Below are positions 1 through 27,117 of a stretch of DNA of 53,460 nt, one piece after another. The stretch spans positions 1-53,460 of the forward strand of contig JANYKT010000079.1 of assembly GCA_025358085.1 (NCBI GenBank). Reading direction: 5' to 3'. The notes beneath the pieces are model-generated. The model did no database searches. It worked only from the letters and a program-made list of their open reading frames with translations, and had not been told where the DNA came from. Made by a program: the position numbers and the translations under genes. How positions within the stretch are numbered: position 1 is the stretch's first letter; each line of letters begins with the position of its first letter. Origin of the DNA: Deltaproteobacteria bacterium. Lineage in GTDB: Bacteria; Myxococcota; Myxococcia; Myxococcales; 40CM-4-68-19.

Positions 1-1710
<1,710 letters not shown>

Positions 1711-20463: not shown

Positions 20464-21342
20464 TTAGCCGCGGGCCAGCTCTTCGGCCCGCCCGATGATG
20501 GGCAGCGCCAGATCCTTCCCCGTCGCGCTCTCGAGGCCCTGCAGGCCGGGGCTCGAGTTGACGTCGAACACCATCGCGCCCGCGCTTCCTTCGATGAGAT
20601 CGATGGCCGCCACCTCCAGCCCCACCACACGCGCCGCCAGCACCGCCATCGCATCCAGCTCGGCGGGCACCCGCACAGCCTTGAGCTGGGCACCCCGAGC
20701 GAGCGTATGCAGAAGCCGTCCGGGCAGCGGCCGCCGCTCGACCCAGGCCACCGCGCGGTCGCCGACGACCAGCGCACGCAGGTCTCGCTCGCGCTTGCGC
20801 CGCACGTAGCGCTGCACCAACAGGTTGTGTCCCATCGACAGCACCGCCTCGAGCGCCGCTTCCATGGTTTGCAGCGACTCGCACACCATCACGCCCGGCC
20901 GCTCGCCGACCGTGAGCAGCTTGATCAGCACCGGCACGCCGCCGACCAGCTCGACCATCGCTTTCAGGTCGCTCGCGCTCGAGGCCATCACCGTGGTCGG
21001 GACCGGCACGCCCTGCGCCGAGAGCAGCTGCAGGGTGCGCATCTTGTTGCGCGACGCAGCGATTCCATTCGCGTCGTTGAGCACTGGCACGCCCATCATC
21101 GTGAAGTGATTCACGACGGCAAGCCCGTAGGGCTGGATGGAGGGCGCTATCCGCGGGATCACGACGTCGGTGCGTCCCAGCCGCTTTCGCTGGTAGAACG
21201 CACTCGGCGCTTTACCGTCCAGGTGCATCTCGACTTGCAGCGGGTCGAGCACGCGCACCTTCGCGCCACGCAGCCGCGCCGCCTGCGTCAGCCGCTTCGT
21301 GGTGTAGATGCCGGCCTTGCGGCTGAGGATGGTGAGGTGCAC
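20464..21342 (-). CDS. RimK-like ATP-grasp ligase
   Basis: 292 residues of the ATP-grasp superfamily, alpha-L-glutamate ligase (RimK) branch. N-terminal pre-grasp domain (MHLTILSRKAGIYTTKRL); NDANGIAASRNKMRTLQLL is the segment entering the ATP-grasp fold. PVLIKLLTVGERPGVM is the ATP-binding loop and FDVNSSPGLQGLE the magnesium-binding end. RimK adds Glu to ribosomal protein S6; relatives act on cofactors or amino-group carriers, and the substrate here is open. GTG at 21342 lies eight bases from a divergent plus-strand start, leaving little room for two promoters. Confidence 0.82.
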   Translation of the reverse strand: MHLTILSRKAGIYTTKRLTQAARLRGAKVRVLDPLQVEMHLDGKAPSAFYQRKRLGRTDVVIPRIAPSIQPYGLAVVNHFTMMGVPVLNDANGIAASRNKMRTLQLLSAQGVPVPTTVMASSASDLKAMVELVGGVPVLIKLLTVGERPGVMVCESLQTMEAALEAVLSMGHNLLVQRYVRRKRERDLRALVVGDRAVAWVERRPLPGRLLHTLARGAQLKAVRVPAELDAMAVLAARVVGLEVAAIDLIEGSAGAMVFDVNSSPGLQGLESATGKDLALPIIGRAEELARG

Positions 21343-21350
21343 GCCTGCGC

Positions 21351-21995
21351 ATGAGTTATCTTATGCAGGTGCTGACCGTCATCTCCTGGTTTGCGGCGCG
21401 CAGGTCAAGGCGCCCCCTCTTCGAACTCGTTCAGGGTTCGCTCACCAACCGGCCCGCGCTCATCGCGATCGTCTCCGACCAGTACACCAATGAGCATCAC
21501 ATCCGGCCTTTTGCACCGCTGGCCGAGAGGCTGGAAGGCCGCATGGACGTCATCCTCGCCGCCGAGTGGCACGCCGAAGACCGCGTCGCCGAGGGCGAGG
21601 CACTCTACCGGTCGCTCGCGGTCGCGCCGCAGGTCCGGGCGAGGCTCACGGCCGATGAGGGCGACCAGAGAGTCGCGCTGGTGGTGCGCCAGAAGAAGCC
21701 CATCGCGCTGCTCGAGCTCTTCTTCAGGGAGCGCGCGCGCGTTGACGACGAGGAGGAGCTACGCCTGCGCGCGTTGGAGGACGCGGCGCTGCTCAGGCTC
21801 GAAGAGCTGCTTCGACTGCTGCCGCCGCAGCCCCCGCCGCCGTCTCGGCTGCTCGCGCCCGGCGAACACGACTTTGCCGCCAACGGCTTGTGCCGCGCCT
21901 GCAACCAGGGCAGCTCGACGCTGTCGCTCTGTCCCGGCACGCGCAAGGACGAGGGGCCGCGCCGCGACCGCTTCGAGCTCATCGAGTTGGACTGA
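21351..21995 (+). CDS. Hypothetical protein with C-terminal cysteine pairs
   Basis: 214 residues, family not recognised. The central part (about 90-160) is charged and helical; a Pro-rich linker LLPPQPPPPSRL follows, then GLCRACNQGSSTLSLCPGTRKDEG, which holds three cysteines and could bind metal. No signal peptide. The first ATG at 21351 is very close to the divergent rimK-like start, so a later start (21363 or further in) is possible. Its stop overlaps the next ATG (TGATG), supporting a real, cotranslated gene. Confidence 0.62.
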   Translation: MSYLMQVLTVISWFAARRSRRPLFELVQGSLTNRPALIAIVSDQYTNEHHIRPFAPLAERLEGRMDVILAAEWHAEDRVAEGEALYRSLAVAPQVRARLTADEGDQRVALVVRQKKPIALLELFFRERARVDDEEELRLRALEDAALLRLEELLRLLPPQPPPPSRLLAPGEHDFAANGLCRACNQGSSTLSLCPGTRKDEGPRRDRFELIELD

Positions 21996-22456
21996 TGACG
22001 GCCCTCTTCGCAGCGCTCGTGCTCGCCGCCATTCCGGTCCGATCCATCGCTGCTGCGCCCCGGCTCGCGGCGGAGATCGGCCACGGCAAACCGGTGGTGC
22101 TGCACTTCTGGGCCACCTGGTGCGGGGCCTGCGTCGAAGAATTTCCCCGCATCCGCGCCGAGCTCAAAAAGCTTTCCGGCCGCGGCATCGCGGTGGCACT
22201 GATCTCGATCGATAGACCCGGGGACGCGGCGAAGGTGGAAGAGTTTCTTCAGCGGTTCCAGCTGCAGGATCTGCCAGCCATCATCCTCGACGCGCCCGAT
22301 CCCGAGCCGGTCGCCCGGGCGGTCGGCGACCTGCGCTGGGACGGCACCCTGCCCGCGACGTTCGTCTTCGATGCGCGCGCGAAGCTGGTCAAGGGCTTCA
22401 TCGGCCGGACCAACGCGGCGGAGCTGGATGCGGCAGCGCGCAAGCTCACGCACTGA
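21995..22456 (+). CDS. TlpA/thioredoxin-like exported protein
   Basis: 153 residues. A signal peptide ([20 protein letters not shown]) is followed by a thioredoxin fold with the redox pair C43-C46 in [16 protein letters not shown] and the cis-Pro region [10 protein letters not shown]. Such proteins reduce or oxidise disulfides in the periplasm, for example in cytochrome c maturation. The ATG shares one base with the preceding stop. Its 3' end overlaps the convergent prs gene by 11 bases. Confidence 0.85.
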
Positions 22457-23363
22457 CCGCGGCGGCGAGCAGCTTCGCCACCGAATCGACCTCGAGAAAT
22501 GCGCTGCGCAGCGTCAGCGCGCGCGGATGCGAATCGGTGACGATTACTTTGTCGAAGAGCCCGCTCTGCTGCAGCCGCGGCAGCGCGTCGCCGGGAAAGA
22601 CGCCGTGCGTGGCCACCGCTGAGATGCGCGTGGCTCCGGCGGCCCGATACGCACGCGCGGCGTTCAGCAGCGACCCGCCGGTGCGAATCAGGTCATCATA
22701 GATGACCACATGCCGGCCCTCCACCTGCGCCGAGACGGCTGTAACCTCGGTCCCCGCGGTGGTGCGGCGCTTGAATACGAACGCTGCCGGGACGCCGAGA
22801 TCGTTGGCCATCGCCTCGACCCACTTGGCGCGGCCCGCGTCGGTGCAGGCGATGGCGAAAGCCGAGCCGGGGGCAGTCCCTGAGCCGGTGTCCGCGGTGA
22901 GGCGGCGGATGGCCTGGAGAATCACCGGCTTCGCGGACAGATGGACAGGCCGCAGCGGGCCCTCGAAATAGAAGGGGATGCCTTCGGTGTGCAGGTCCAG
23001 CAGCAGCACGCGCGCGCCCGAGCCCGGCAAGGGAATGGACGACAGCAGCCGCGCCCGCGTCTTGGCCGTCACGATCTCGCGAGGCAGCGCGGCGCGCTCC
23101 ATGGTGGCGTAGCCGAAATAGGGAATCACCAGGCTCAGGCTGCGCGCGCCCGCTTCGACAATGCCGCTGGCGAGGTCGTACAGCTCCAGTGTATCGGCCT
23201 CCGAGACGGTGCCGCCCAGGAGCGCAACGTCCTTGCCGGCCGGCGAGGTTTCCAGCCGCAAATAGCGTTCGCCGTCGGGGAACAGCTTGTTCTCCACGGT
23301 GCCCCGTTCGAGCCCGGTCGCCGCCGCGAGCGCGGCATACGCCTGCGTATGAAAGAGGATCAC
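22446..23363 (-). CDS. prs: Ribose-phosphate pyrophosphokinase
   Basis: Makes PRPP from ribose-5-phosphate and ATP. 305 residues from GTG at 23363, which overlaps the pncB stop (GTGA). N terminus [34 protein letters not shown]; the ATP/flexible-loop region includes [22 protein letters not shown]; the PRPP-binding loop is [15 protein letters not shown]. These differ from the housekeeping enzyme (DLHAxQIQGFF, DDxxDTGGT), so this is a divergent Prs. Placement after nicotinate phosphoribosyltransferase suggests it feeds PRPP to NAD salvage. Confidence 0.86.
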
Positions 23364-24796
23364 GCGCGAGCCTCCAGGATCATCCTCGTCCGGCGTTCGT
23401 GCAACCGCGGCTCCAGCCCCACCGGATACGCGTGCGGGTTGGCAAAGCGCCGGCTCCCCGCGGGCAAACGTGCCACCTGCGCGAGGCAGCGCGCACGCGA
23501 GTCGGCAAGAGACGGCGTGGCGTACACGCTTTTGCCGCCGCGCACGGCCGGCACCAAAAGATCTTCCCACGGCGTTGTTTCCGGGAGCCGCTTGCGCCGC
23601 GTTGGATCGACCGGGTCGACGAGCGTTCCGTCTCCCGGGCCCAGGCGCACGTCGTAGATGCAATCGCCCGCGGGCTCGCCGCCGTGCAGGAACCGCCTGA
23701 CCTGGAGGATGCCCGGAGTGGTGGTCTTGGCGGTCTGCTCCGAGAGCTTGATGCGGCTCTGCCACTCGCCGCCCGGCTCGCGCACCGCCCCGAGCTTATA
23801 GACGCCGGCCAGCGCGCCCTCGCCTCCGCCGGTGACCAGCTGGGTACCTACGCCCCAGGTTCCGATGCGCGCGCCCTGCAGCTTCAGGCTCTCGATCACT
23901 CGCTCGTCGAGATCATTGGATCCGAGCACGCGCGCCTGCGGAAAGCCCGCCTCATCGAGCATGCGCCGCGCCTGGATGGACAGCCAGGCGAGATCTCCCG
24001 AATCGAGCCGGACACCGAGCAGCTCGTGCCCGTGCGCGCGCAGCTCGCGGCCGATCGTGATCGCATGCGCGACGCCCTGAAGGGAATCGAAGGTATCGAC
24101 CAGGAACAGGCAATTGCCGGGCAATGCGCCGGCGTATTCGCGAAAAGCGTGCAGCTCGTCGTCGAAGAGCATCACCCAGCTGTGCGCGTGCGTCCCGCGC
24201 ACCGGAATGCCCAGCAGCTTCCCGGCCATCGCATTCGAGGTAGACTCGACACCTCCGATATACGCCGCGCGCGACGCCAGCAGTGCGCCGTCGATGCCCT
24301 GGGCCCGCCGCAGCCCGAACTCCAGCACCGGATCTCCGCGAGCCGCCACGCACACGCGCGCGGCCTTGGTGGCAATCAACGTCTGGAAATTAAGCAGGTT
24401 CAATAAGGGGGTCTCGAGCAACATGCAGGGAATGATTGGACCTTGCACCCGCAGCACCGGCTCGTAGGGAAAGACCACCGTTCCCTCCGGGACCGCGTCC
24501 ACGTCGCAGGTGAGCTGGAGTTCCGATAGATACTGGAGGAACCCGTCGTCGAAGAGCCCTTGTTGCCCGAGCCACTCGAGATCATCGGATTGAAACCGAA
24601 AGAGCTTGAACAGCTCGAGCGCGGGTCCCAGCCCTGCCGCCACGGTGAAGCCGCCATCGAATGGCGCTTTGCGAAAGAAGTGATGGAACACCGCCTCGCG
24701 CTCGTGCGCGCCCGACTTCCAGGCGGCAAATGCCATGGTCAATTGATACAGATCGGTAAACAACGCGAGTCGCGGTCCATACAGCTCTTCGAGCAT
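23360..24796 (-). CDS. pncB: Nicotinate phosphoribosyltransferase
   Basis: Converts nicotinate and PRPP to nicotinate mononucleotide, the entry step of NAD salvage. 478 residues. Family marks are [18 protein letters not shown] near residue 15, [37 protein letters not shown] with the conserved histidine, [11 protein letters not shown] and [13 protein letters not shown]. The ATG at 24796 is three bases after the preceding gene; the stop overlaps prs. It is the middle gene of a three-gene operon. Confidence 0.92.
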
Positions 24797-24799
24797 TCT

Positions 24800-26011
24800 T
24801 CAGCGCCTCCAGCTCGCTGCCTGTGCCGCAGTGGGATTGACGATCACCTCGCCCGTGTCGCTGTCCAGCGCGATGCGGTCGCCGTTGCCGACGCCATGGA
24901 AAATCTGCCGGACGCCGCACACCACCGGCAGCCCCAGCGAAGCCAGCAGCGCCACTCCTGTCGAGGCGTCGGCGTCGGCCGCGCAGATGGCGCCGACCGC
25001 GCCGTGCGACCAGCCGCGCAGCGCCGCGAGCCCCGGGAGGTGAACGCCGATGAGCAGCTCGCCCCGCCGGAATCGCGAGGGCTCGAGGCCCGAGAGCCGG
25101 TGCGCCACCGCCCCGAGGAACTCCTCGACATCGACCGCGCGCCGCGCCGCCGGCCCGTGAATGGCCAGCGCCCGCGCATACTCGGCAGCGATACGCTCCA
25201 GCGCAAGCGACGGCCCCACCCTCGCTTTGAGAAGCTCTTGCGCACGCTCCTCCAGCCGCCCGTCGTCGAGCGTGGTGCAGATCTCCTCCAGCTCGCGGGT
25301 CGGCTGCGTGGCAGCCGCGCGCGCCTTCTCGACCAGCGCGTGCACCTCTTCCCGGACGGCCTTGAAAGCGGCCGCGAGTTCCTCGCCAGTCGCTTTATCG
25401 CCGCGCTTGCGGGGAATGGCGCGCGACAGCACGGCGGCCATGCCCAGCGTGCGCCCGCACCGGTTGCCGGCGCCGTGGAAGAGGAGGTTCGCGCCCTGCG
25501 GGTGCTGCGCGTCGATCAGCGTCGCGATGCCGCGCGTGCAGGAGATGGCGAGCAGCAGGTCCCGCTCGGAGAAGGGTCCCTCCTCGCGCTGCAGCACCAG
25601 CGCCCCGCGCGCCCGCGCGGAGCTCAACACCGGGATCGCCAGGAAGGCCGGATATCGCTCCTCGCCGAGCTGCGGAAAATAGGAGAACTGTTCAATCAGC
25701 CGCGCGTCGTCCACCGTCACCGGCCGCATCGACTGCACCGCGGTGCCGGTGATGCCCTGCCCCACTTTGAGCCGCACCTCGCCGAGCACGTCCGCGTCGT
25801 AGCCGTGGTTGCCGCGCAGCACCAGCTCCTCGCCGGGTTCGAGCACGTAGACGCTCGCAACCGGCACGGAGCAGAGGGTCGCGAGCTGCTTGCAGATGAA
25901 GCCCAGGCCCGACGAAAGCGTGCCGCCGCTCGCAGGTCCGGCGGCGAGGTTCAACGCTGCCTGCACGCGGGGAGAACCGAAGACGATCTGCAACGGCACG
26001 CGAGAGTCCAC
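24800..26011 (-). CDS. GAF / PtsI-N-like protein lacking the PEP-binding barrel
   Basis: 403 residues resembling the front two-thirds of PtsP (EI-Ntr). A GAF domain (about 25-165) is followed by an enzyme-I N-terminal-like helical domain (about 170-325) and the swivelling domain with a retained histidine near residue 336 in GWSHGAVGAI, ending in GDRIALDSDTGEVIVNPT. It stops there; the roughly 250-residue PEP-utilising TIM barrel of a normal PtsP is absent and the next gene starts three bases later. It cannot self-phosphorylate from PEP as drawn. GTG at 26011 is the assumed start. It is first gene of the pncB-prs operon. Confidence 0.78.
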   Translation of the reverse strand: MDSRVPLQIVFGSPRVQAALNLAAGPASGGTLSSGLGFICKQLATLCSVPVASVYVLEPGEELVLRGNHGYDADVLGEVRLKVGQGITGTAVQSMRPVTVDDARLIEQFSYFPQLGEERYPAFLAIPVLSSARARGALVLQREEGPFSERDLLLAISCTRGIATLIDAQHPQGANLLFHGAGNRCGRTLGMAAVLSRAIPRKRGDKATGEELAAAFKAVREEVHALVEKARAAATQPTRELEEICTTLDDGRLEERAQELLKARVGPSLALERIAAEYARALAIHGPAARRAVDVEEFLGAVAHRLSGLEPSRFRRGELLIGVHLPGLAALRGWSHGAVGAICAADADASTGVALLASLGLPVVCGVRQIFHGVGNGDRIALDSDTGEVIVNPTAAQAASWRR

Positions 26012-26160: not shown

Positions 26161-27117
26161 ATGAAAGACTTTCAGGTCGGCGCCGGCGCAGTGCTGTTGC
26201 CGCTCGGCGCTATCGCCTGCTGCTTTCCGCAGGTCTCCACCGGCCTCGGGCTCCTGCTCGGCCTCGTTATCGCGTTGACCGCCGGCAATCCTTATCTCGA
26301 CCGCACTCGCAAGCTGACGCCAAAGCTGCTCGCGCTCTCGGTGGTCGGCCTTGGCGCCGGCATGGATCTGCGCGTCGTCGCCCGCGTCGGTGCGCACGGC
26401 ATCCTCTATACAGTTCTCGGTATATCGACAGCATTGCTGCTGGGCGCGCTTCTCACCCGCTTATTGAAAGTCGAGCGCAATGTCGGCACGCTCATCACGG
26501 TGGGCACCGCCATCTGCGGCGGCAGCGCCATTGCCGCCATCGTGCCGGTCATCCGGGCAAAAGATCACCAGGCCTCGGTCTCGCTCGCCACCGTCTTCCT
26601 GCTCAATGCACTGGCCCTCTTCCTCTTTCCCCCTATCGGCCGGTGGATGTCTCTCAACGACGCCCAGTTCGGACTCTGGAGCGCGCTCGCCATCCACGAC
26701 ACCAGCTCGGTGGTCGGCGCCGCGGTCGCCTGGGGCGGCAAGGCAGTAGAAATCGCGACTACGGTCAAGCTCGCGCGCGCTCTCTGGATCGTTCCGCTCA
26801 CCCTCGCCGTCAGCTGGTGGCACGCGCGCAGTGGCGGTGAGGCAGCGCACGGAAAGGCCCGCCGACCGTGGTTCATCGCCGGCTTCGTCCTGGCTGCCGC
26901 GCTGGTTACTTATGTGCCGGGATTGCAGGCCCCGGGGCACCTGGTCTCGGTCGTCGCCAAGCAGGCGCTGGTGGTGACTCTCTTTTTGATCGGAGCCAAT
27001 CTGACCCGGGGCGCATTGAAAGCCGTTGGCGCGCGGCCGCTCCTGCTCGGCGTCCTCCTCTGGATATTGGTGGCGAGCGCCAGCCTGGCCGCTATCTCGC
27101 AGCGCCTGGTCTTCTGA
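26161..27117 (+). CDS. YeiH-family (UPF0324) membrane transporter
   Basis: 318 residues with about ten membrane segments. The signatures GTAICGGSAIAAIVPVI (about residues 117-133) and LAIHDTSSVVGAAVAWG identify the YeiH / putative sulfate exporter family. Substrate is not established. ATG at 26161 directly follows a short upstream stretch that contains one copy of the ATGGGGACACC motif discussed elsewhere. It is divergent from the GAF/PtsI-like gene. Confidence 0.88.
   Translation: MKDFQVGAGAVLLPLGAIACCFPQVSTGLGLLLGLVIALTAGNPYLDRTRKLTPKLLALSVVGLGAGMDLRVVARVGAHGILYTVLGISTALLLGALLTRLLKVERNVGTLITVGTAICGGSAIAAIVPVIRAKDHQASVSLATVFLLNALALFLFPPIGRWMSLNDAQFGLWSALAIHDTSSVVGAAVAWGGKAVEIATTVKLARALWIVPLTLAVSWWHARSGGEAAHGKARRPWFIAGFVLAAALVTYVPGLQAPGHLVSVVAKQALVVTLFLIGANLTRGALKAVGARPLLLGVLLWILVASASLAAISQRLVF

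Follow-up and report, generated by a model that had tools for sequence, protein, structure and literature searches.

The PtsP-like protein encoded in the window, the whole 53,460-nucleotide stretch analysed (contig JANYKT010000079.1 of a Myxococcota genome), is a genuine, conserved Myxococcota variant and not a sequencing error. Its enzyme I (EI) part stops before the PEP-binding barrel and carries no histidine at the catalytic position. The protein is probably a phosphotransfer-dead derivative of PtsP (EI-Ntr), that is, a GAF-ligand sensor that would report by protein contact and not by phosphate. The features concerned are listed in Table 1.

Table 1. Positions of the PtsP-like gene, its downstream neighbours, and the codons and domains discussed. 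Nucleotide positions refer to the window and residue numbers to the PtsP-like protein.
Feature	Position	Strand	Description
PtsP-like gene	24800..26011	minus	Barrel-less, His-less protein, 403 aa, GTG start
pncB	23360..24796	minus	Nicotinate phosphoribosyltransferase; NF006695, E 1.2e-169, above cut-off
PRPP synthetase-like gene	22446..23363	minus	TIGR01251, E 3.8e-52, above cut-off
Thr351 codon	24959..24961	minus	Catalytic phospho-His position of enzyme I, from alignment to canonical EIs; coordinates computed from residue number
His336 codon	25004..25006	minus	In 'GWSHG'; supposed catalytic His of the preliminary description; not conserved
GAF domain	residues ~12-172
EI N-terminal helical domain	residues ~177-315		HPr-binding type
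Swivel domain	residues ~316-393

The GAF domain was matched by Pfam at 1e-10, and the EI N-terminal and swivel domains gave weak Pfam matches (0.005 and 0.014) below the cut-off. For the EI part, TIGR01417 of NCBIfam was a better match than Pfam and covered residues 211-402. The NCBIfam PtsP model, NF008283, matched the GAF part with 51.8 bits, below its curated cut-off of 583 bits. When a profile of 15 members was compared with the PDB, PtsP GAF domains were found (3ci6, E 1.2e-27, and 3trc), and EI N-terminal structures were found clearly, including the NPr:EIN-Ntr complex 5t1o. The AlphaFold2 model had a mean pLDDT of 83.8 and a pTM of 0.59. Solved PtsP GAF domains were the best structural match for its GAF domain (Z 20.6), and residues 175-403 matched EI 2wqd (Z 19.5, 227 residues, rmsd 3.6) and EIN-Ntr 5t1o (Z 17.8). 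Because of these profile, NCBIfam and predicted-fold matches, the architecture given in the preliminary description is right: a GAF domain, an EI N-terminal helical domain and a swivel domain, ending at the linker before the barrel. The protein thus shares with PtsP the GAF type, the domain order and the EI-N and swivel folds, whereas PtsP (GAF-EIN-swivel-PEP barrel; NF008283) has about 750 aa against 403 aa here, and its barrel, catalytic histidine and TSHTAI.AR motif are absent here.

The absence of the barrel was confirmed. A frameshift hiding a barrel had been considered beforehand as a possible sequencing error, and it was ruled out: a six-frame search of the genome gave no match to PF02896 (PEP-binding barrel) on the window's contig, and the relatives end at the same point. 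Counting the window's genome, whose relatives are Myxococcota MAGs, the PtsP-like gene was present in 10 of the 12 family genomes. The 7 other complete family copies have the same C-terminus as the window's. A scan of named genome contigs yielded 22 loci, 8 of which were the window's family relatives. The remaining loci include eleven complete distant Myxococcota members (~30% identity) that also lack the barrel and end shortly past the NPS motif. The control was L037, a canonical PtsP whose source MAG carries the label Proteobacteria; it retains both TSHTAI and the barrel. For the closest pairs, dN/dS over the whole gene was ~0.07-0.25, and the swivel value was also well below 1. Because these values are well below 1, purifying selection acts on the GAF, helical and swivel domains.

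A free-standing PEP-binding domain gene, which the preliminary description had proposed to look for, was not recovered from the window's genome, since the candidate on contig C17 (261 aa) and a piece on contig C182 together make up one ordinary EI. The two contigs overlap exactly over 141 bp, which joins the pieces. The remaining PEP-binding-domain matches in this genome were an EIIA-HPr-EI fusion and two further proteins, which we take to be PPDK and PEP synthase.

The catalytic histidine was stated at first to be kept, and this did not hold. The canonical EIs used for alignment included two encoded by the window's own genome, whose true EIs keep TSH. The catalytic column is occupied by Thr351 in the window and by T, P, K, R, A or L across the 15 aligned members. 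His336 lies 15 residues before the catalytic position; in the model it falls just past helix 327-335 and ahead of strand 340-343, and the EI helix that follows the catalytic histidine corresponds to residues 351-358. Family relatives have A, Y, S or Q at position 336. His336 as phospho-acceptor was therefore ruled out, being at another position and not conserved among relatives. Canonical Myxococcota EIs have a TSHTAI.AR motif and, in the helical domain, an AHrxM motif; the members have lost both. Judged from the composition of the catalytic column, the protein cannot carry an EI-type phosphohistidine, and PEP-dependent autophosphorylation and NPr transfer in the EI form would likewise be excluded. 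Homologues without a conserved histidine had been named in advance as evidence against a phosphate-carrying protein, and such homologues are what the 15 members proved to be. Because the catalytic histidine is not conserved, the suggestions that phosphate is received from another protein and that NAD synthesis is under phosphorylation-linked control have lost their support.

The PTS of the window's genome includes the classical EI split across C182 and C17, the EIIA-HPr-EI fusion (L003, G000:C211:15774-17270), two EIIA-type genes (C88 and C155) and one HPr (C19). With the fusion present beside a separate EI, phosphate could enter the PTS at two points. Across 193 Myxococcota genomes, no full-length GAF-EI PtsP scored over the NF008283 cut-off, and among the best matches, which are those listed, all start at or after the GAF end. 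When a tree was built from the EI part, the members stood apart from canonical EIs with support of 98/96 and long branches. This separation agrees with one old loss, without proving it. In the literature collection that was searched, no earlier description came up for PtsP in Myxococcus, for PtsP with nicotinate phosphoribosyltransferase, or for truncated EI-Ntr.

For the contact-based sensor, the GAF domain would bind a small metabolite, and by analogy with PtsP the likeliest ligand class would be glutamine or 2-oxoglutarate. Ligand binding would be reported through the EI-like helical and swivel domains via protein contact, which is the sole signalling route left because both the acceptor histidine and the barrel are missing. 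The output may be an altered affinity for a partner, either one of HPr/NPr type, for which the protein would compete with the true enzymes I or act as a decoy, or a different one. The EIs, HPr and EIIA proteins of its own genome are possible contacts. HPr binding is not assured, since the helical domain no longer has the AH motif. The sensor or scaffold that had been offered as the second option thus remains the best reading, for which we infer a protein partner and an output. Its more specific form, a Myxococcota-specific pseudo-enzyme I whose ligand gates its role as decoy or competitor at HPr/NPr, so that the true phosphorelay is tuned by binding alone, is put forward as a tentative possibility.

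The EI fold may also have been put to another use. A rather doubtful alternative is that the EI-like part was reused outside the PTS, for example for dimerisation or as an adaptor, which would leave all sensing to the GAF domain. The loss of the AH motif is in line with such a reuse, as is the helical domain of one distant group, which evolves about 3 times faster than its GAF and swivel domains. However, the overall EI-N and swivel fold is kept.

The gene neighbourhood was compared among family and distant loci. In the window, pncB starts 3 nt past the stop codon of the PtsP-like gene, and the pncB stop is overlapped by the start of the PRPP synthetase-like gene. On the plus strand, divergent and upstream, are a YeiH-type transporter gene and a 2-oxoacid:ferredoxin oxidoreductase pair. 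The YeiH-family gene (window 26161-27117) separates the PtsP-like gene from the oxidoreductase pair; at this place the relative L020 has an amino acid permease gene, and the relatives L025 and L026 have an alcohol dehydrogenase-like gene. A RimK-type ligase gene and a thioredoxin-like gene (window 20464-22456) are kept near the family PtsP-like gene, with or without pncB. Besides RimK and a thioredoxin-like protein, the family flanks encode POR subunits and a SpoU methylase; outside the family the flanking genes are unrelated. In one Myxococcales MAG, a Ser/Thr protein kinase gene is directly 3' of the PtsP-like gene (L038:8412-10361). From the neighbours, no conserved partner common to the family and the distant groups was found.

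The 3-nt spacing to pncB and the pncB-prs overlap in the window, and the order ptsP-like, pncB repeated in G002, G005, G007, G008 and G009, would suit a regulator that binds the nicotinate salvage enzyme PncB, or PRPP synthetase, and tunes it without phosphate where the genes form one operon. This is unlikely, however, since the PtsP-like gene stays while pncB is on a different contig (G003, G004) or was not found (G010, where a thioredoxin-like gene is next), and the flanks covered at the distant Myxococcota loci contain no pncB. In G001, a contig end truncates the PtsP-like gene, and pncB is elsewhere. The tight linkage that had been described is therefore real in the window and, for pncB directly downstream, in 6 family genomes including the window's own (G000), but PRPP synthetase was found after pncB only in the window and in one relative, L021. 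The homologues sought with the same truncation and the same neighbours were likewise found for the truncation (7 family, 11 distant) and only in part of the family for the neighbours. The linkage to pncB, and here also to prs, occurs in only part of one family and lies outside the core function; because of this restriction, its weight for NAD synthesis is small.

A phospho-acceptor intermediate, whose swivel domain would be phosphorylated by another EI or HPr and would control NAD synthesis, is very improbable. The DhaM phosphoryl-donor subunit (EIIA-HPr-truncated EI) speaks for it together with the pncB genes that adjoin in 6 family genomes. Like the protein here, DhaM has an EI N-terminal part without the PEP barrel, and its truncated EI domain still takes part in phosphotransfer; its model NF008478 matches the PtsP-like protein weakly. 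However, DhaM keeps phosphorylatable histidine residues, and its EIIA-Man and HPr domains are absent here, where only GAF precedes the EI part by Pfam. All aligned members lack the catalytic histidine, His336 is private to the window and in another position, and other genera have no pncB linkage. The Agrobacterium plasmid pDG3-1h protein WP_254229256.1 (448 aa) is also GAF-EIN-swivel without a barrel, but unlike the protein here it keeps the TSH motif, has strong Pfam matches and groups with canonical EIs. Its gene (L086:3917-5263; NZ_CP074401.1, 7088-8434) is a His-bearing truncation such as the preliminary description imagined, and is perhaps a recent gene fragment. Least credible is a functionless PtsP remnant or decaying pseudogene, which the lost barrel and active site might suggest, but an open frame ending near the same point is kept by the 7 complete relatives in the family as well as by distant members, and dN/dS is well below 1, swivel included.

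If the contact-based sensor is the true reading, the PTS would have yielded a pseudo-enzyme in which sensor and fold survive but the chemistry does not, in a phylum without a full PtsP above cut-off among the 193 sampled genomes. There would then be a second route, besides phosphorylation, from GAF-sensed metabolic status to the PTS.
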